From: Plotosus lineatus
Lineage: Eukaryota; Chordata; Actinopteri; Siluriformes; Plotosidae
Reading direction: 5' to 3'
Length of the DNA: 64,000 bases
Assembly (NCBI GenBank): GCA_024760905.1
Contig: CM045746.1
Location: 5,067,001-5,131,000 of the forward strand
The number at the start of each line of letters is the position of its first letter. Position 1 is the first letter of the stretch. A model generated the notes under the pieces. That model did no database searches and was not told the origin of the DNA. It was given only the letters and a program-made list of their open reading frames with translations. Position numbers and translations under genes: made by a program. Positions 4,404-54,203 of this stretch are shown piece by piece.

Positions 4404-4522
4404 AGAATTTTATATGTTTTATATATTGTCAGTTGGTCCCACTTTCAAGTTTGGCAAAATTTGCTGAGCTTTACAATTCCATAAACATAGGAGACTTGTG
4501 TGAAAACATTACTTACACACAC

Positions 4523-4536
<14 letters not shown>

Positions 4537-4583
<47 letters not shown>
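4537..4583. repeat. (TA)n microsatellite abutting palindrome
   Basis: A CA tract and then uninterrupted TA dinucleotides run into the left border of the Penelope-like palindrome. A second (CATA)/(TA) tract follows at about 4945-5013. Confidence 0.95.
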
Positions 4584-4590
<7 letters not shown>

Positions 4591-4634
4591 AAAATAAAAG
4601 GACAGGACAAAGACTTTTTATTGAAACTCCATTT

Positions 4635-4689
4635 ATCACTACAGATCTGTTTCGAGGGGTGGTGAAACCATCCTCTCTCTTCAGGTGAT
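4635..4689 (-). ncRNA. Hammerhead ribozyme candidate (type I), copy 1
   Basis: On the minus strand: stem I ATCAC, core CTGAAGA, a hairpin stem II with TGGT-TTC-ACCA tip, core GAAA, a short stem III ACA-GATC-TGT, the predicted cleavage dinucleotide TA, and the closing stem I strand GTGAT. Every conserved core position of a hammerhead is met. It mirrors copy 2 in the same palindrome. Confidence 0.75.
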
Positions 4690-4772
4690 TATAGAGGAAT
4701 CACGATCATCACAATCACAATTATAGAAGATTCTTCTATAATTGTGATTGTGATGATCGTGATTCCTCTATA

Positions 4773-4827
4773 ATCACCTGAAGAGAGAGGATGGTTTCAC
4801 CACCCCTCGAAACAGATCTGTAGTGAT
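4773..4827 (+). ncRNA. Hammerhead ribozyme candidate (type I), copy 2
   Basis: Stem I is 4773-4777 (ATCAC) pairing with 4823-4827 (GTGAT). CTGAAGA occupies 4778-4784. Stem II/loop is 4785-4808, with G-C closing pairs, two mismatches and a UUC loop. GAAA is 4809-4812. Stem III is 4812-4821 with a GATC loop, and cleavage is expected after A4822. This fits the universal CUGANGA...GAAA...UH layout. Confidence 0.78.
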
Positions 4828-4940
4828 AAATGGACTTTCAATAGAAAGTCTTTGTCCTGTCCTTTTATTTTTATTATTATTTGCTCTACCAAAAAGTATT
4901 GAGCACTCTCCTATGGAAGGATCTACTCAGAAAATCCTCC

Positions 4941-5018
<78 letters not shown>

Positions 5019-6113: not shown

Positions 6114-7560
6114 GACAGTTTGGCAGTTGGCCCTGATGACATACCAGTTGAGGTATGGAAGTGTCTAGGGGAGGTAGCAGTAGATTTTCTGACAAGAATA
6201 TTCAACAAGGTCTTAGAAAGTGAGCAGATGCCAGAGGAATGGAGGAGAAGTGTGCTTGTGCCCATTTTTAAGAACAAGGGAGATGTACAGAGTTGTGGCA
6301 ACTACAGAGGGATAAAGTTGATGAGCCATACAATGAAGCTATGGGAAAGAATAGTGGAAGCAAGACTAAGGGCAGAGGTCAGCATTTGTGAACAACAGTT
6401 TGGTTTCATGCCAAGAAAGAGCACCACAGATGCAGTGTTTGCTTTGAGGATGTTAATAGAGAAGTACAGAGAAGGTCAGAAGGAGCTGCATTGTGCCTTT
6501 GTGGATCTGGAGAAAGCATATGACAGGGTGCCGAGAGAAGAACTGTGGTATTGTATGAGGAAGTCTGGAGTGACAGAGAAGTATGTTAGAGTGGTGCAGG
6601 ACATGTATGAGAGATGTAAGACAGTGGTGAGGTGTGCTGTCGGTGTGACAGAAGAGTTCAAGGTGGAGGTGGGACTGCATCAAGGGTCAGCTCTCAGCCC
6701 CTTCTTGTTTGCTATGGTGATGGACAGGCGAACAGACGAGGTTAGACAAGAATCTCCATGGACTATGATGTTTGCAGATGACATAGTGATCTGTAGTGAG
6801 AGCAGAGACCAAGTGGAGGAAAATCTAGAGAGGTGGAGGTATGCCCTGGAAAGGAGGGGATTGAAGGTTAGTCTCAGAAAGACAGAATACATGTGTGTGA
6901 ACGACAAGGACCCAAGAGGAACTTTGAGGTTACAGGGGGCAGAGATAAAGAAGGTGGAGGATTTTAAGTACTTAGGCTCAACAATCCAGAGCAATGGAGA
7001 GTGTGGAAAAGAGGTGAAGAAGCGTGTGCAGGCAGGTTGGAATGGATGGAGAAAAGTGTCTGGTGTGATGTGTGATAGGAGAGTATCGGCAAGAATGAAG
7101 GGAAAAGTGTACAAGACGGTGATGAGGCCAGCGATGTTGTATGGTTTAGAGACAGTGGCCCTGGGGAAAAGACAGGAGTCAGAGTTGGAGGTAGCAGAGA
7201 TGAAAATGTTGAGGTTCTCTTTGGGAGTAACGAGGATGGATTGGATCAGAAATGAGGACATCAGAGGGACAGCACATGTTAGATGTTTTGGAGACAAAGT
7301 CAGAGAGGCTAGATTGAGATGGTTTGGACATGTACAGAGGAGGGATAGTGAGTATATTGGTCGTAGGATGCTGAGGTTGGACGTACCAGGCAAAAGGCCC
7401 AGAGGAAGACCAAAGATAAGATTTATGGATGCGGTGAAGGCGGACATGAAGGTCGTTGGAGTAAGAGAAGATGCAGAGGATAGGGAGAGATGGAGGCAGA
7501 TCATTTGCTGTGGCGACCCCTGAAGGGAACAGCCGAAAGGAAAAGAAGAAGAAAGAAGTA
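6114..7560 (+). mobile_element. 5'-truncated RTE LINE inserted in hAT copy H1
   Basis: The insertion is flanked by GTGTGTTTAAACA at 6101-6113 and 7561-7573. It begins within the linker just before the reverse transcriptase domain and runs to the natural 3' end (GACCCCTGAAGGGAACAGCC followed by an AAG/AGA-rich tail). Confidence 0.92.
6120..7523 (+). CDS. RTE LINE reverse transcriptase, C-terminal two-thirds (467 codons, open)
   Basis: The longest open frame in the window. It encodes the RT and C-terminal region of an RTE-clade LINE polyprotein, which primes cDNA at nicked chromosomal DNA. Visible in order: GPDDIP near residue 4, NYRGIKL near 62, QFGFMP near 93, FVDLEKAYDRVPREELW near 127-143, HQGSALSPFLFAMVMD near 187, the catalytic FADDIV near 219-224, KYLGSTIQSNGECG near 285, RWFGHVQRR near 400 and a basic PRGRPK near 430, ending CGDP. 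The endonuclease is absent because the copy is 5'-truncated, and the apparent ATG is an internal codon, so this frame is not expected to function alone. The open frame suggests a recent insertion. Long antisense frames here are shadows. Confidence 0.9.
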   Translation: MAVGPDDIPVEVWKCLGEVAVDFLTRIFNKVLESEQMPEEWRRSVLVPIFKNKGDVQSCGNYRGIKLMSHTMKLWERIVEARLRAEVSICEQQFGFMPRKSTTDAVFALRMLIEKYREGQKELHCAFVDLEKAYDRVPREELWYCMRKSGVTEKYVRVVQDMYERCKTVVRCAVGVTEEFKVEVGLHQGSALSPFLFAMVMDRRTDEVRQESPWTMMFADDIVICSESRDQVEENLERWRYALERRGLKVSLRKTEYMCVNDKDPRGTLRLQGAEIKKVEDFKYLGSTIQSNGECGKEVKKRVQAGWNGWRKVSGVMCDRRVSARMKGKVYKTVMRPAMLYGLETVALGKRQESELEVAEMKMLRFSLGVTRMDWIRNEDIRGTAHVRCFGDKVREARLRWFGHVQRRDSEYIGRRMLRLDVPGKRPRGRPKIRFMDAVKADMKVVGVREDAEDRERWRQIICCGDP

Positions 7561-10980: not shown

Positions 10981-12998
10981 TACGTCTCTATTAACATCCT
11001 CAAAGCAAACACTGCATCTGTGGTGCTCTTTTTCTTGGCATGAAACCAAGCTGTTGTTCACAAATGCGCTTAGTCTAGCTTCCACTATTCTTTCCCATAA
11101 CTTCATCATATGACTCATTAACTTTATCCCTCTGTTGTTGCCACAACTCTGCATGTCTCCCTTGTTCTTAAAATGGGCACAAGCACACTTCTCTATTCCT
11201 CCGGCATCTGCTCACTCTCTAAGACCTTGTTGAATGTTCTTGTCAGAAAATCTACTGCTACCTCACCAAGACACTTCCATACCTCCACCGGTATGTCATC
11301 TGTACCAACTGCCTTTCCACTCTTCATCCTCTTCAATGTCCTCCTCACTTCACCCTTACTAATCTTTGCTACTTCCTGGTCCTCAACAGTCACCTCTTCT
11401 ACTCTTTTTTCTCTCTCTCATTTTCCTCATTCTTTAGCTCTTCAAAGTACTCTTTCCATCTTCCCAGCACACTTCTGTCATCAGTCAATACAGTTCTCAC
11501 TCTGTCCTTAATCACTGTAACTTGCTGCACGTCTTTCCCATCTCTACTTCCCTGCTGTGCTAACCTGTATAAATCATTTTCTCCCTCCTTACTGTCCAAC
11601 CTAGCATACAAGTCATCATTTGGCCTTTGACACCGCTACCTTCGCATTATGCTGTGTCTCCCTGTATTCCTGTTTACTCTCCTCAGTCCTCTCTGTGTCT
11701 CACGTATTCTTAGCTAACCTCTTCCTTTGTACACACTCCTGCACTTCCTTCTTCCACCACCAAGTCTCCTTATCTACTTTCCTTCCAGAGAACATACCAA
11801 GAACTCTCCTACCTGTCTCCCTGATCACATTAGCTGTAGTTGTCCAGTCATCTGGAAGCACTTCCTGACCACCCAAAGCCTGTTTCAACTCCTCCTTGAA
11901 GAGAACACGACCCTCTTCCTTTTTCAGCTTCCACCACTTTGCCTTCTGCTCTGCCTTTGCCTTCTTCACCTTTCTCACCATCAGCATCATCCTGCACACC
12001 ACCATCCTATGCTGTTTGGCAACACTCACCCACTACGACTTTGCAGTCACTGACTGCCTTCAAATTACATCGTCTACACAAGATGTAGTCTACCTGTGTG
12101 CTCCTATCACCGCTTTTATGCCCTATGCTCCTGTCTCTTCTGGAAGAAAGTATTCACCACAGCCATTTCCATGCTTTTTGCAAAATCTATCAACATCTGT
12201 CCTTCTGTGTTCCTGTCCTGGATACCAAACCTGCCCATCACTTCCTCATCCCCTCTGTTGCCTGCGCCAACACATTGAAGTCTGCCCCAATGACCACTCT
12301 TTCACCTCTGGGGGTACTCTGCATTACTTAATCTAACTCACTCCAGAATCTCTCCTTCTCTCCTAGCTCACATCCTGCCTGTGGGGCATAAGCACTAACA
12401 ACATTAAACATCACACCTTTTTCATCACTCTGTCTGACACTCTTTTCACTTGTAGAAGATTCCTGACAAACTCCTCATTCAAGATGGCTCCTATTCCATT
12501 TCTCTTCCCATCCACACCATGAAAAAACAGCCTAATCCCTGCTCCTAAGCTTCTAGCCTTGCTACCTTTCCACCTGGTCTCCTGGACACAAAGTATGTCC
12601 AACTTTCTCTTCTGCATTGTGACAGCAAGCTCTCTAACTTTTCCTGTCATATTTCCAACATTCAAAGTCCCTTCTCTCAGTCCTAGACTCATGCCTTTCC
12701 TCTTCTCTCTCTGCCTACGGACATGCATCCCACCTCTCCTTCTTTGACCAACAGTAGTCCAATTTCCACCTGCACCCTGTTGGTTAACAGCACTGATGGC
12801 GGTCGTTGTTAATCCGGGCCTCAACTGATCCGGTATGAAATTCGTTTTGATCATTTGTATAACAATTTTGGCAGAAGTTTTACGCTGGATGCCCTTCCTG
12901 GCGCAACCCTCTGCATTTATCCGGGCTTGGGACCGACGTGAGGGTGAACACTGACTTGTGCCCCCCACCTCACGGCTGCATTGCTTAGCACAAGTGAT

Positions 12999-13955
12999 AT
13001 ACATCTGTATTTCAAAGAAGTTGTTGTCACTTCCCACACATTAAACAAACAATTCTTTTCATCATTTTCTCAACTGCTGAATTTTAATTAGGGTTGCAGA
13101 GAGGCTGGTACCAATCTCAGCTAACTGTTGGCAAGGGCAGAGTACACCCAGTACTTGGCAGGCCATCACAGGACAGAAACACACTGATGGCTATGCAGCT
13201 TCTCTTTAGCATTGGTTATTATTGGTTCTTTTAAGTGAACCTCTCACCACAGACAGTGAGAGACATGGTTGACCTTTGATACCCCAGTTAGCTGTACTGG
13301 GGGGCAGCAGTGACAACTGTTGACAGTGGGACTTTGAACCCCAACCTTACGATCCTTAGATAATCCAGCACCTTACCACCGGGCCACCACTGCCCCTCTC
13401 TGCATTTTAGCACTTTTTATTCAAAAACTACTGAACAAATTTTCACCAAACTTTATGGAGAGATTGGGTGAGAGCCTGGTAAGAACCTGTAACATTTTGT
13501 AAAAGATCTCGAGCATTATCTGCATCCAGAACTTTATTAAAGACTTTTTAGCAAACATTTATGTAAGGAGTTTTTTCCTTTTAGCAGGATTACGTTAAAA
13601 TTACTGATCTGATTACAGTAAAACTTGTTGGAGGGGTGGGGTCTGAAGCTGGAAAGAAGCCCTTAAATTTTGGAGGTGATCAGTGCATGGGATAATGTTG
13701 GGGGGAGCCTGAAATATCCCTACCATTAATTGGGTGGATCATGACTGAGGTGTGATCGGAGAGTGACTGGCATGAATGGGTATAAATGCATGTAGTTTAG
13801 TCCAGAGTGCAGCAGCAAGAGTCCTTACTAGAACCAGAAGACACTAGCATATCACTGTACTGGGTTCCAGTTAAATATCAAATTGAATATAAAATACAGT
13901 ACTACTTTAACCAAAAACACTTAATGGTCTCATGCCACATTATCTAAGTGAACTT
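12999..13955. repeat. Left arm (inner part) of inverted duplication
   Basis: Reverse complement of about 51205-52150, including a SINE-A copy and about 550 bp of non-coding sequence. Homology breaks off around 13955-13960. Just beyond lies AATAATTGAGAAGCACTG (about 13976-13993), a solitary end of the BED-hAT family, which may mark the breakpoint. Confidence 0.88.
13063..13400 (-). repeat. SINE-A with L2-like tail (left-arm copy)
   Basis: Minus-strand head GGGGCAGTGGTGGCCCGGTG at 13380-13398, SINE-A body (CATGTCTCTCACTGTCTGTG), then the L2-like tail ending near 13065. The right-arm partner is 51755-52085. Confidence 0.85.
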
Positions 13956-14105: not shown

Positions 14106-14108
<3 letters not shown>

Positions 14109-14212
14109 TTTCTGAGTAGATCCTTCCGTAGGAGAGTGCTCAATACTTTTTGGTAGAGCAAATAAACAAAAATAAAAGGACAGGACAAAGACTTTCTATT
14201 GAAACTCCATTT

Positions 14213-14267
14213 ATCACTACAGATCTGTTTCGAGGGGTGGTGAAACCATCCTCTCTCTTCAGGTGAT
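14213..14267 (-). ncRNA. Hammerhead ribozyme candidate, copy 3
   Basis: Same layout as copy 1: stem I ATCAC/GTGAT, CTGAAGA, stem II hairpin, GAAA, short stem III and TA cleavage position, all on the minus strand with no change in the core. Confidence 0.75.
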
Positions 14268-14293
14268 AACAGAAGAATCTGTAATCTTCTGTA

Positions 14294-14348
14294 ATCACCT
14301 GAAGAGAGAGGATGGTTTCACCACCCCTCGAAACAGATCTGTAGTGAT
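14294..14348 (+). ncRNA. Hammerhead ribozyme candidate, copy 4
   Basis: Stem I 14294-14298 with 14344-14348, core CTGAAGA at 14299-14305 and GAAA at 14330-14333. Identical in the core to copy 2. Confidence 0.75.
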
Positions 14349-14393
14349 AAATGGAGTTTCAATAGAAAGTCTTTGCCCTGTCCTTTTATTTTT

Positions 14394-14396
<3 letters not shown>

Positions 14397-14464
<68 letters not shown>
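14397..14464. repeat. (TA)n microsatellite
   Basis: About 33 uninterrupted TA units bordering the palindrome. A further (TA)n lies at about 14914-14957. Confidence 0.95.
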
Positions 14465-14968: not shown

Positions 14969-14989
14969 CACACACATACATACATACTA

Positions 14990-16562
14990 GTCCTTCTCAA
15001 AAAATTAGCATATTGTGATAAACTTCATTATTTTCTGTAATGTACTGATAAAAATTAAACTTTCATATATTTTAGATTCATTGCACCCCAACTGAAATAT
15101 GTGAAGTCTTTTATTGTTTGAATACTGATGATTTTGGCATGCAGCTCATGAAAACCCGAAATTCCTATCTCAAAATATTAGCATATTTCATCCAACCAAT
15201 AAAAAAAGTGTTTTTAATACAAAAAAAGTCAATCTTCAAATAATTATGTTCAGTTATGTACTCAATACTTGGTTGGGAATCCTTTTGCAAAAATGACTGC
15301 TTCAATGCGGCGTGGCATGGAGGCAATCAGCCTGTGGCACTGCTGAGGTGTTATGGAGGCCCAGGATGCTTCGATAGCGGCCTTAAGCTCATCCACAGTG
15401 TTGGGTCTGGTGTCTCTCAACTTTCTCTTCACAATATCCCACAGATTCTCTATGGGGTTCAGGTCGGGAGAGTTGGCAGGCCAATTGAGCACAGTAATAC
15501 CATGGTCATTAAACCATTTACCAGTGGTTTTGGCACTGTGAGCAGGTGCCAGGTCGTGCTGAAAAATGAAATCTTCATCTCCATAAAGCTTTTCAACAGA
15601 TGGAAGTATGAAGTTCTCCTAAATCTCCTGATAGCTATCTGCATTGATCCTGCCCTTGATAAAACACAGTGGACCAACACCAGCAGCTGACATGGCACCC
15701 CAGACTATCACTGACTGTGGGTACTTGACACTGGACTTCAGGCATTTTGGCATTTCCTTCTCCCCAGTCTTTCTCCAGACTCTGGCACCTTGATTTCCGA
15801 ATGACATGCAAAATTTGCTTTCATCTGAAAAACGTACTTTGGACCACTGAGCAACAGTCCAGTGCTGCTTCTCTGTAGCCCAGGTCAGGCGCTTCTGCCG
15901 CTGTTTCTGGTTCAAAAGTGCCTTGACCTGGGGAATGCGGCATCTGTAACCCAGTCCACTGCTTCCACAGGTCCCACAAGGTCTGGAATCGTCCCTTCTC
16001 CACACTCTTCCTCAGGGCCCAGTCACCTCTTCTGGTTGTGCAGCGTTTTCTGCCACACTTTTTCCTTCCCACAGACGTCCCACTGAGGTGCCTTGATACA
16101 GCACTCTGGGAACAGCCTATTCACTCAGAGATTTCTTTCTGTCTTACCCTCTTGCTTGAGGGTGTCAACGATGGCCTTCTGGACAGCAGTCAGGTCAGCA
16201 GTCTTACCCATGATTGCGGTTTTGAGTAATGAACCAGGCTGGGAGTTTTTAAAAGCCTCAGGAATGTTTTGCAGGTGTTTCGAGTTAATTGGTTGATTCA
16301 GATGATTAGGTTAATAGCTTGTTTAGAGTACCTTTTCATGATATACTAATTTTTTGAGATAGGAATTTTGGGTTTTCATTATCTCATGAAATCATCTCAT
16401 GAAACCTCATGAAATCAAAATCATCAGTATTAAAACAATAAAAGACCTGAAATATTTCAGTTGGGGCACAATGACTGTAAAATATATGAAAGTTTAATTT
16501 TTATCAGTACATTACAGAAAATAATGAAGTTTATCACAATATGCTAATTTTTTGAGAAGGAC
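14990..16562 (-). mobile_element. Tc1-like transposon (Tc1-A), complete
   Basis: The ends read GTCCTTCTCAAAAAATTAGC and its complement, flanked by TA (14988-14989 and 16563-16564). Inverted repeats are about 200 bp and contain a second internal copy of the AAAATATTAGCATAT/TACTAATTTTTTGAGA motif. It sits directly beside the single Penelope-like unit. Confidence 0.93.
15262..16211 (-). pseudogene. Tc1-type transposase, frameshifted
   Basis: It starts at MGKTADLTAVQKAI (16211) and ends PTKY. An N-terminal helix-turn-helix is followed by a CGRKRCTTRR basic stretch, KCRIPQVK-like residues, the first catalytic D in FSDESKF, WGAMSAAGVGPLCF, the second D in the FxQHDLAPAH region and the E in SPDLNPIENLW. 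A stop near 16130, a shift near 15960-16010 and a shift near 15620 break it. It differs clearly from Tc1-B, so two Tc1 families are present. The plus-strand frames 15256-15690 and 15862-16229 are antisense shadows. Confidence 0.88.
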
Positions 16563-16565
16563 TAG

Positions 16566-16680
16566 TATATAAATAAAAGGACAGGACAAAGACTTTCTAT
16601 TGAAACTCCATTTATCACTACAGATCTGTTTCGAGGGGTGGTGAAACCATCCTCTCTCTTCAGGTGATTATAGAAGAATG
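16566..16680 (-). repeat. Single (unpaired) Penelope-like unit
   Basis: The same unit as one palindrome arm, ending at TTCAGGTGATTATAGAAGAA, without a mirrored partner. It lies directly beside Tc1-A, which may have landed in or next to it. Confidence 0.8.
16614..16668 (-). ncRNA. Hammerhead ribozyme candidate, copy 5
   Basis: Minus-strand ATCAC (16664-16668), CTGAAGA, stem II hairpin, GAAA, short stem III, TA and GTGAT (16614-16618). It is the only copy outside a palindrome and so the one most able to fold in isolation. Confidence 0.76.
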
Positions 16681-16682
16681 AT

Positions 16683-16859
16683 TACAAAGTGCTGGGGGCG
16701 GTCCTATGTCGATAAACATGGCGTCCTCTAGATGGGGTGATGTCCATTATGTATTCGGGGGTGGGTTCTCTTAAATATTGGTATCGATACATGCATATAT
16801 GTGCATACATTTTTTTACATACCTGTGAACTCATATATGTACACACACATATATATATC

Positions 16860-16908
<49 letters not shown>

Positions 16909-17507
16909 CTCAGGCCCCGCCCACACGCAATGCACAGCTGACGGAACAATTCTATTTAAATGGACGGGATGTTGTATTTAAAGCGGAATTACAGTACATG
17001 TTTGAAAGATCAGGGGTCCTCATTCAATATAAACTTGCTTCCTTGTGAGATCGGAGGTCTTCTCCCACGGAGCCTCTGTTTTGATATCGTGCCGAAATAA
17101 TCGCCTCCATCACTGTATTTCTGCTTTAACGTCTCCTTCTGCTTCAATATCGTCCCGATTTTAGAGGGGTTTCGGTGATAACGAAATACAACGCTGCATG
17201 ATCAATCACAAAATAAGCCAACAGTCAACTCTCCTTCACGCGTGTGACAAACAGAAAGTATGTGTACAGGAAGTATGTACTGCCTCCTGGCCAAAGGGAG
17301 GCCAGCGGGGTGGGATGCTGGCAGACAGCCAATGAGAGAGCAACTCAAGCATCGTGAGAAATTTTGATTGGCGCATCTGAATTTTGAATGGCACATTTCG
17401 TAAGAGGAGGTTGTTTTTGTATCCCGGGGACGAAAACTTAGGAAAATGTTTTTCGTAACTCGGAGTTTCCGTACCCAGGGGGTTTCATAAGTAGGGTTAG
17501 TAGACTG
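16683..17507. mobile_element. Tigger-like element, right end plus interior
   Basis: The right terminus GGGTTAGTAGACTG at 17507 is followed by TA. The interior contains TTCTGCTTCAATATCGTCC, also seen near 28273 in a foldback element. A (CA)n tract lies at 16858-16904. The left terminus is not visible and no transposase can be read. Confidence 0.5.
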
Positions 17508-17516
17508 TATATACTA

Positions 17517-17652
17517 GTCCTTCTCAAAAAATTAGCATTATTGTGATAAAGTTCATTATTTTCTGGAATGTACTGATAACTTTCATATATTTTAGATTCA
17601 TTGCACCCCAACTGAAATATTTCAGGTCTTTAACTGTTTTAATACTGATATA
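17517..17652. mobile_element. Tc1-A terminal inverted repeat fragment
   Basis: Matches the first 135 bp of Tc1-A, preceded by TA, then runs into (TA)n at about 17662-17712. It is a truncated or recombined second copy of the family. Confidence 0.88.
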
Positions 17653-17714: not shown

Positions 17715-18062
17715 GGGGCAGTGGTGGTCTAGTGGTATAGGGCACTGGATCGCTGATCCAAAGGTTGGGGGTTCGAGTCCCACTCTCCACAGGGTTGTCA
17801 CTGTCCCCCCCCAGTGCAGCTAACTGGGTTATCAAAGGCGGGCCATGTCTCTCACTGTCTATGGAGAGAGGCATGTAAAAGAACCATTGCTGATTTTCGT
17901 AAAGAGTAGGCTGCAAAGTCGTCGGCGTGTTTCTGTCCCTTGCTGAAAAGGGTTGTGACAGGAAGGGCATCCGACGTAAAAACCTCTGCCAAATCAAACG
18001 TGCGAATCAGATGATTCGCTGTGGCGACTCCCGAGTAAAAGGGAAAAAGCCGAAAGGAAGAC
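17715..18062 (+). repeat. SINE-A with RTE-derived tail, full length
   Basis: tRNA-like head with perfect polymerase III A box (TGGTCTAGTGG) and B box (GGTTCGAGTCC). A SINE-A body follows (CATGTCTCTCACTGTCTATG; AGAACCATTGCTGA). From about 17948 come roughly 60 bp matching the RTE LINE 5' UTR (AGGAAGGGCATCCGACG, TGCCAAAT, GCGAATCA). These join directly to the LINE 3' end (GATTCGCTGTGGCGAC ... AGCCGAAAGGAAG). This is the best copy for defining the family. Confidence 0.9.
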
Positions 18063-52326: not shown

Positions 52327-52575
52327 TGCCCTTCCTGTCACAACCCTTTTAGCAAGGGACAGAAATACGCTGACAACTTTGCAGCCTACTCTTTACGAAA
52401 GTCAGCAATGGTTCTTTTACATGCCTCTCACCATAGACAGTGAGAGACATGGCCCGCCTTTGATAACCCAGTTAGCTGCACTGGGGGGGACAGTGACAAC
52501 CTTGTGGAGAGTGGGACTCGAACCCCCAACCTTTGGATCAGCAATCCAGTGCCCTATACCACTAGACCACCACTG
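52327..52575 (-). repeat. SINE-A insertion private to the right arm
   Basis: The minus-strand head near 52575 (CAGTGGTGGTCTAGTGG) runs through body to the LINE 5'-UTR-like GGAAGGGCAT at 52327, where it ends; the LINE 3'-like part is missing. Flanked by CCACTG on both sides. The left arm near 2300 is empty. Confidence 0.82.
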
Positions 52576-52933: not shown

Positions 52934-54203
52934 GCAGCCGTGAGGGGGGGGCACAAACCAGTGTCTCTCCCTCACGCCGGTCCTAAGCCCGGATAAATGC
53001 AGAGGGTTGCGTCAGGAAAGGCATCCGGCGAAAAACAAATGCCAAATAAAATATGCGAATCACAAGAAAGAATGACATACCGGATCGGTCGAGGCCCGGG
53101 TTAACAACGACCGCCAGAGAAGATCAGACGGAGCTGCATTGTGCCTTTGTGGATCTGGAGAAAGCATATGACAGGGTGCCGAGAGAAGAACTGTGGCATT
53201 GCATGAGGAAGTCTGGAGTGGCAGAGAAGAATGTTAGAGTGGTGCAGGACATGTATGAGAGATGTAAGACAGTGGTGAGGTGTGCTGTCGGTGTGACAGA
53301 AGATTTCAAGGTGGAGGTGGGACTGCATCAAGGGTTAGCTCTCAGCCCCTTCTTGTTTGCTATGGTGATGGACAGGCTGACAGACGAGGTTAGACAAGAT
53401 TCCCCATGGACCATGATGTTTGCAGATGACATTGTGATCTGTAGTGAGAGCAGAGAACAAGTGCAGGAAAATCTAGAGAGGTGGAGGTATGCCCTAGAAA
53501 GGAGGGGAATGAAGATTAGCCTCAGTAAGACAGAATACATGTGCATGAATGACAAGGACCCAAGAGGAACGGTGAGATTACAGGGAGCAGAGATAAGGAA
53601 GGTGGAGGATTTTAAGTACTTAGGCTCAACAATTCAGAGCAATGGAGAGTGTGGAAAAGTGGTGAAGAAGTGTGTGCAGGCAGGTTGGAATGGTTGGAGA
53701 AAAGTGTCCGGTGTGATGTGTGATAGGAGGGTATCGGCAAGAATGAAAGGAAAAGTGTACAAGATGGTGTTGAGGCCAACGATGTTGTATGATTTAGAAA
53801 CGGTGGCCCTGGAGAAAAGACAGGAGGCAGAGCTGGAGGTAGCAGAGATGAAAATATTGAGGTTCTCTTTGGGAGTAACGAGGATGGATAAGATTAGGAA
53901 TGAGTACATCAGAGGGACAGCCCATGTAAGATGTTTTGGAGACAAAGTCAGAGAGGCTAGATTGAGATGGTTTGGACATGTACAGAGGAGGGATAGTGAG
54001 TATATTGGCAATAAGATGCTGAGGCTGGAACTACCAGGCAGAAGGCCTCGAGGAAGACCAAAGAGACGATTCATGGATGTGGTGAAGGAGGACATGAAGG
54101 TCATTGGTGCAAGAGAAGAAGATGCAAAGGATAGGGTGAGATGGAGGCAGATGATTCGCTGTGGCGACCCCTGAAGGGAAAAGCCGAAAGGAAAAGAAGA
54201 AGA
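52934..54203 (+). mobile_element. Internally deleted RTE LINE with both natural ends
   Basis: It begins with the 5' UTR (GCAGCCGTGAGG), seen otherwise only in the left-arm full copy, and ends at the normal 3' end. The 5' UTR joins at about 53111 directly to the RT region, skipping the endonuclease and linker (about 1.9 kb). An 18-bp duplication (52916-52933 and 54204-54221, 17 of 18 identical) flanks it. The left arm at 1936-1953 preserves the empty site. Confidence 0.93.
53053..54174 (+). CDS. RTE LINE fusion frame: 5' UTR leader joined to RT (373 codons)
   Basis: An open frame crosses the deletion junction. The first ~21 residues come from the 5' UTR (MRITRKNDIPDRSRPG), then the RT follows from TELHCAFVDLEKAYDRV. 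Catalytic FADDIV near residue 120, KYLGSTIQ near 190, RWFGHVQRR near 300 and a basic PRGRPKRRF near 335 are intact, and it ends CGDP. Fingers-region motifs before FVDLEKAYD and the endonuclease are absent, so target-primed transposition by this protein alone is not expected. The frame is open along its full length, as in 6120-7523, suggesting recent insertion. Confidence 0.85.
   Translation: MRITRKNDIPDRSRPGLTTTAREDQTELHCAFVDLEKAYDRVPREELWHCMRKSGVAEKNVRVVQDMYERCKTVVRCAVGVTEDFKVEVGLHQGLALSPFLFAMVMDRLTDEVRQDSPWTMMFADDIVICSESREQVQENLERWRYALERRGMKISLSKTEYMCMNDKDPRGTVRLQGAEIRKVEDFKYLGSTIQSNGECGKVVKKCVQAGWNGWRKVSGVMCDRRVSARMKGKVYKMVLRPTMLYDLETVALEKRQEAELEVAEMKILRFSLGVTRMDKIRNEYIRGTAHVRCFGDKVREARLRWFGHVQRRDSEYIGNKMLRLELPGRRPRGRPKRRFMDVVKEDMKVIGAREEDAKDRVRWRQMIRCGDP

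Follow-up and report, generated by a model that had tools for sequence, protein, structure and literature searches.

RESULTS

Structure of the insertions

When the window, i.e., the whole 64-kb stretch of Plotosus lineatus DNA that was analysed, was compared with itself by BLAST, three related insertions were recovered, namely two palindromes (palindromes 1 and 2) and one solo arm. Their features, in window positions, are as follows.

4535..4587, no strand: (TA)n tract next to the arm of palindrome 1 that has no tail; interpreted as AT-rich target
4585..4730, minus strand: inverted arm (pseudo-LTR without tail) of palindrome 1
4635..4689, minus strand: candidate hammerhead core of the inverted arm, predicted cut 3' of the base complementary to 4640
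4732..4877, plus strand: direct arm (pseudo-LTR) of palindrome 1
4773..4827, plus strand: candidate hammerhead core of the direct arm, predicted cut after A4822
Parts of the direct-arm core, plus strand: stem I 4773-4777/4823-4827; CTGAAGA 4778-4784; stem II 4785-4808; GAA 4809-4811; stem III 4812-4821
4791..4793, plus strand: ATG within stem II of the direct arm
4878..4936, plus strand: unique tail 3' of the direct arm
4943..5014, no strand: (ACAT)n(TA)n tract past the tail of palindrome 1
14106..14163, minus strand: tail of palindrome 2
14164..14398, no strand: palindrome 2, with approximate outer limits and a shorter centre; arms about 14165-14279 and 14285-14396
14213..14267, minus strand: candidate hammerhead core of the tail-bearing arm of palindrome 2
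14294..14348, plus strand: candidate hammerhead core of the other arm of palindrome 2
16567..16679, minus strand: solo arm, the third copy, without tail; candidate hammerhead core 16614-16668

The inverted repeat at 4584-4878 was confirmed, with 146-nt arms (4585-4730 and 4732-4877) that are 99% complementary and separated by a 1-nt spacer. Compared with its own reverse complement, this 295-bp sequence deviates at 7 positions, i.e., the centre, the pairs 4618/4844 and 4627/4835, and both end bases. The near-perfect palindrome of the original prediction is therefore real, but its end at 4878 is not the end of the unit, as a unique tail runs on to about 4936. A few bases and an ACAT repeat separate this tail from the TA repeat. 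Nothing is interposed between the arms of either palindrome, and the element lacks an ORF.

The tail (about 58 bp) is found on one side only in both palindromes, and tail plus flank are 88.5% identical between the two over 87 bp (4879-4965 versus 14163-14077). The order on the sense strand is also the same in both: TA repeat, inverted arm, direct arm, tail, TA repeat. With the first base of the tail as reference, the tail-less arm of palindrome 1 remains alignable up to 2 nt short of that point and that of palindrome 2 up to 1 nt beyond it, so that the two end points are no more than 3 nt apart. In the solo arm, similarity stops 7-8 nt short of these two ends, at a point that lies in a run of T and A and is blurred. 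The solo arm is flanked by a short TATATA and then by the end of another repeat (about 14981-16571), which has inverted ends, adjoins the solo arm and has its far end in a CA/TA-rich tract. We take this repeat to be probably Tc1-like; its ORF 15619-16002 matched no Pfam family, and a third copy of its end is located at 17508-17649. The solo arm would once have adjoined a TA tract too. On its other side, 16680-17507 had no match among those listed in the self-comparison of the window and may belong either to the host or to a more upstream portion of the element. Anatomy, common tail, TA-rich flanks and the three copies were all observed directly.

Exact-pattern searches gave no copies in the viral (viral_contigs) or the bacterial and archaeal (genome_contigs) collections, a result of little weight given their contents. 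Weak matches to plasmids and phages covered at most 15% of the query with E values of 0.009 or worse and were taken as chance.

Variation among the arms

All five arms were aligned, and the difference counts include edge columns where the centre or the flanks begin. The arms within a palindrome differ at 3 of 120 positions (palindrome 1) and 7 of 121 (palindrome 2), as against 9 to 12 differences in 120 between arms of different palindromes. For the solo arm, 7 to 8 differences in 120 positions were counted against palindrome 1 and 12 to 13 in 121-122 against palindrome 2. States common to both arms of one palindrome and different in the other were observed directly, in the interior of the arm at columns 7 and 11 and on its AT-rich outer edge at columns 114, 117 and 118. 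At columns 7, 11 and 114 the solo arm agrees with one palindrome, so that the odd state sits in the other. Columns 13, 76, 85 and 96 are private to a single arm; at the inner edge (columns 0, 1, 2 and 4) the arms of palindrome 2 disagree with each other, and an extra inner stretch is present in both arms of palindrome 1 and absent from the other arms.

Judging from these shared variants, each palindrome probably arose at its own locus. The variants also imply a common template for the two arms of a palindrome, copying of one arm from the other, or later homogenisation at the locus.

The candidate hammerhead core

Hammerhead elements were found on both strands of palindrome 1, at 4773-4827 (plus) and 4635-4689 (minus). 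In each core, the two strands of stem I (ATCAC/GTGAT) enclose CTGAAGA, the hairpin of stem II, GAAA, and a stem III of 3 bp capped by a GATC loop, and UA precedes the cut; the elements were judged against the generally known list of hammerhead core bases. With the conserved core, three stems and an open stem I all present, the primary sequence is that expected of a type I hammerhead. The full set of elements that had been predicted for each arm was thus recovered, with the correction that stem II is interrupted by an internal loop and an A-C mismatch. All five arms have the same 55-nt core sequence.

Two descriptors were used to estimate chance expectation. The first (stem I of at least 4 bp, stem II of at least 2, stem III of at least 3, loops up to about 60 nt) matched 5 times in the window, compared with 12 matches in 200 dinucleotide shuffles and 217 in 3000, i.e., about 0.07 per shuffled window. 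The strict one (stem I at least 5, stem II at least 3 and closed by G-C, short loops), which was defined post hoc when the motif had already been seen, matched 5 times in the window and not once in 3000 shuffles. Since the five matches are homologous copies, they count as one independent event.

The covariance-model check that had been proposed for the hammerhead went against it: no Rfam hammerhead family matched at E values up to 10 in the whole window, in 4500-4960 or in 4762-4838. This result counts against a hammerhead without being decisive, as the models were uncalibrated here on known minimal hammerheads of Penelope-like elements (PLEs). Rfam microRNA matches across palindrome 1 were rejected, as all were below the gathering score and would be expected of any long hairpin.

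The frame of the ATG in stem II (4791) closes after 10 codons at TAG TGA TAA (4821-4829), at the predicted cut site, and therefore the arm shows no start of a PLE reading frame. This string of stops occurs in five of five arms; a second ATG directly follows it (window 4821-4832). The arm was also considered as part of a PLE protein, as one frame is open across arm and tail, but this reading was rejected when the protein search gave no candidate.

Predicted RNA folding

The 55-nt monomer is predicted to prefer another fold, with -7.6 kcal/mol for the hammerhead structure versus -13.4 kcal/mol for the best fold, and ensemble energies of -10.4 kcal/mol when constrained to the hammerhead versus -14.5 kcal/mol for all folds. 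Its stability is ordinary (27 of 200 shuffles fold as well or better), while a 101-nt piece around the core is somewhat unusually stable (3 of 200). For two molecules the prediction is different. In RNAcofold the lowest-energy homodimer of the 55-nt core is a double hammerhead, with -37.4 kcal/mol versus 2 x -13.4 (-26.8) kcal/mol for separate monomers, the comparison being between these two states of the native core; this dimer fold was obtained directly in silico. The best homodimer of a 79-nt piece is likewise a double hammerhead (-44.6 versus -34.0 kcal/mol for two monomers), and the homodimer of the 204-nt arm plus tail departs from the double-hammerhead register. Stem III is a 10-nt self-complementary sequence (ACAGATCTGT) that forms a continuous intermolecular helix in the predicted dimer, although such a stem favours some dimer in any case. 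The suggestion that the self-complementary stem III allows dimeric folding is thus supported for the 55-nt core, and by these models a single core appears able to work only as a pair.

A transcript spanning palindrome 1 and its tail is predicted to form one hairpin of -262.5 kcal/mol, compared with -49.1 kcal/mol for the direct arm with tail alone. Similarly, the pairing of sense and antisense arms (-374.0 kcal/mol) is far stronger than the sense homodimer (-110.6 kcal/mol). The proposed switch between self-cleavage and one long hairpin is therefore unlikely, as the full-palindrome hairpin dominates and a read-through transcript would be locked in it. Any relevance of the hammerhead would be limited to RNAs whose 5' start lies within an arm, or to direct tandems at other places.

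Other elements in the window

Eight chosen ORFs of the window were searched against Pfam, with RVT_1 found twice, DDE_3 once and no match for the remaining five; the two RVT_1 ORFs were assigned at the Pfam level. No PLE reverse transcriptase and no GIY-YIG endonuclease was found among these eight. ORF 6120-7520, with RVT_1, is presumably RTE-like. Among its 120 listed matches (of 4748), many of which are unnamed, all species names shown belong to fishes (Hemibagrus, Pangasius, Pangasianodon, Lucifuga, Channa, Labeo), and on this basis a ray-finned fish is the probable source of the window. The only Rfam matches at gathering score in the window were two tRNAs, at 17718-17791 (plus) and 52503-52573 (minus). 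Both tRNA-like heads lie in dispersed repeats, which are probably tRNA-derived SINEs. Twister-P1 matches were below the gathering score of 67.2 bits, at 12903-12987 (minus, 52.8 bits) and 52951-53010 (plus, 30.6 bits). The former overlaps ORF 12411-13037 (minus), which we take to be RTE-type. According to a 2020 review (PMC7761336), RTE elements have truncated twister ribozymes as a conserved feature of their 5' end.

DISCUSSION

Probable assignment to Penelope-like elements and alternative explanations

Based on the results of this study, the feature is probably a non-coding insertion derived from a PLE, composed of two head-to-head pseudo-LTRs (pLTRs) with a one-sided tail and with a minimal type I hammerhead in each. 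pLTRs with a tail on one of them occur in both palindromes, TA repeats flank both palindromes on both sides as at an AT-rich or simple-repeat site, and the hammerhead descriptor is satisfied in five of five arms, the Rfam models being without a match. The link to Penelope elements that had been suggested from the motif is supported by a comparison with published PLEs, which the element resembles in arrangement, tail, AT-rich target and candidate motif and in having an ATG within stem II. With nothing between its arms, and no GIY-YIG endonuclease among the eight ORFs searched, the element is not an autonomous PLE. Its head-to-head arrangement is already known for PLEs. By analogy with the Adineta vaga elements, in which this layout is a described form of insertion (PMC3846280), it would need no special role of the ribozyme.

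The likeness to a hammerhead could, on the other hand, be a coincidence or a dead relic, the whole being an ordinary inverted repeat, derived from a PLE or not, whose RNA is not cleaved. Such an explanation would agree with the missing Rfam match, with the monomer preferring another fold (-7.6 for the hammerhead versus -13.4 kcal/mol) at ordinary stability, and with the rate at which the first descriptor arises in shuffled windows (about 0.07). It is more difficult to reconcile with the strict descriptor, absent from 3000 shuffles though set post hoc, with a core that is identical in all arms while columns outside it vary, and with a double hammerhead as the best predicted homodimer of the core. 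Moreover, tail, target and arrangement independently indicate PLEs, which are known carriers of such motifs, and a mere coincidence or relic is accordingly considered unlikely, although it deserves some weight. A non-LTR retrozyme, whose RNA is circular and carries type I hammerheads, would likewise be small and non-coding with a short stem III, and the available part of one study reports a weak stem III in amphibian retrozymes too (PMC7229834). The retrozymes described there are tandem repeats of about 150-450 bp, however, and within the window the arm was never seen as a direct tandem, its copies being inverted or solo; a retrozyme is therefore a rather improbable source.

Near-perfect inverted repeats, TA-rich flanks and a solo arm could also be produced by a foldback or MITE-like DNA transposon with a preference for TA targets, in whose inverted repeats the motif would be present by chance. 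The ends are asymmetrical, however, with a one-sided tail in both palindromes, and the centres differ between the palindromes while the arms largely agree, unlike cut-and-paste copies of one palindromic master, so that a DNA transposon of this kind seems very unlikely. Amplification and library chimeras are generally known to yield large near-perfect palindromes as well. An inverted chimera of sequencing or assembly would nevertheless hardly account for two loci with different centres, private arm differences and unlike flanks on the two sides, and such an artefact is extremely improbable.

Possible origin of the palindromes

If the assignment to PLEs holds, it is most likely that short RNAs containing a pLTR, or copies with severe truncations, were carried into TA tracts by a PLE protein. 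AT-rich DNA would be cut by the PLE protein and reverse transcription would begin at one of two nearby sites internal to the RNA, and the site used would decide whether the arm includes the tail. Two cDNAs, or one folded-back cDNA, would then join at the 5' ends of the pLTRs and form the palindrome. The similar ends of the tail-less arms suit two priming events, one per internal start site, with cDNAs joined at the pLTR 5' ends, a weak test with two palindromes. A single cDNA snapping back on itself would likewise account for matching arms, but it explains less simply why one arm lacks the tail from nearly the same place. We infer the PLE source, these priming steps and any activity of the ribozyme.

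The short self-complementary stem III would suit the core to a double hammerhead between two RNAs or between two tandem units. It could even be imagined that the double hammerhead pairs two identical PLE RNAs in a particle, and that a PLE protein dimer cuts both target strands and begins reverse transcription on each, at the inner site on one and at the outer site on the other, until the 3' ends of the cDNAs meet. This is quite unlikely, and published findings on PLEs speak against any required role of the ribozyme, such template dimerisation included. If it were true, the mirrored arms and the one-sided tail would record a dimeric template, and the function of PLE hammerheads would be template dimerisation rather than mere cleavage. 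The role of the hammerhead and the origin of head-to-head pLTRs meet here in one tiny non-coding unit, and the two questions could therefore be tested together. Apart from that, the insertion is an ordinary relic of a known type of retroelement.

Comparison with known systems

Mirrored hammerheads were not found among the published titles and openings of abstracts that were listed, a search in which Lunse 2017 and Cervera 2014 were not covered, and no priority is claimed; they are also not described in the available part of a schistosome paper (PMC8490949). The closest arrangement is that of Penelope elements in Adineta vaga. As described in the accessible portion of that study, an inverted pLTR adjoins a direct pLTR, the tail is optionally present on one of them, inverted junctions contain palindromes, insertion favours AT-rich simple sequence, and solo pLTRs occur (PMC3846280). 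Head-to-head is the commonest order there, and the author favoured self-priming on an antisense template in 2013, with further experiments needed (PMC3846280, same portion). The present element thus shares with them the head-to-head inverted pLTRs, the junction palindrome, the single tail, the AT-rich targets and the solo pLTRs. However, the Adineta vaga families were defined by ORFs, intact or damaged, as far as that portion goes (PMC3846280), whereas nothing lies between the arms here, and the word "hammerhead" does not occur in the main text of PMC3846280.

Comparable to the candidate core, stem II ATG, tail and TA-rich flanks described here, the Poseidon element of Anolis (PAc) has a hammerhead at the pLTR-ORF junction, a tail and an AT-rich target, and its ORF begins at the start of hammerhead stem II (PMC11167929). 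In PAc, reverse transcription from two internal sites accounts for the tail, and both strands of the target are cut (PMC11167929). PAc has a full ORF and is cut 26 bp after the start codon, whereas in the present element the frame of the stem II ATG stops after 10 codons and the predicted cut lies 32 bases from the A.

With regard to the ribozyme itself, part of the 2020 review presents PLE hammerheads as minimal variants whose role is a mystery and which may cleave as dimers (PMC7761336). Judging from their titles and from portions of two citing papers (PMC7761336, PMC6466107), the studies of Lunse, Weinberg and Breaker (2017) and Cervera and de la Pena (2014) concern small PLE hammerheads with a minimal type I core and dimeric action, as predicted here. 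Better cleavage as dimers is also reported for the hammerheads of axolotl retrozymes in the available part of PMC7229834. According to the same part, metazoan non-LTR retrozymes resemble the present element in being non-coding, in having type I hammerheads and, in amphibians, in their weak stem III, but they are tandem repeats with circular RNAs, whereas the element described here is a head-to-head pair with a tail.
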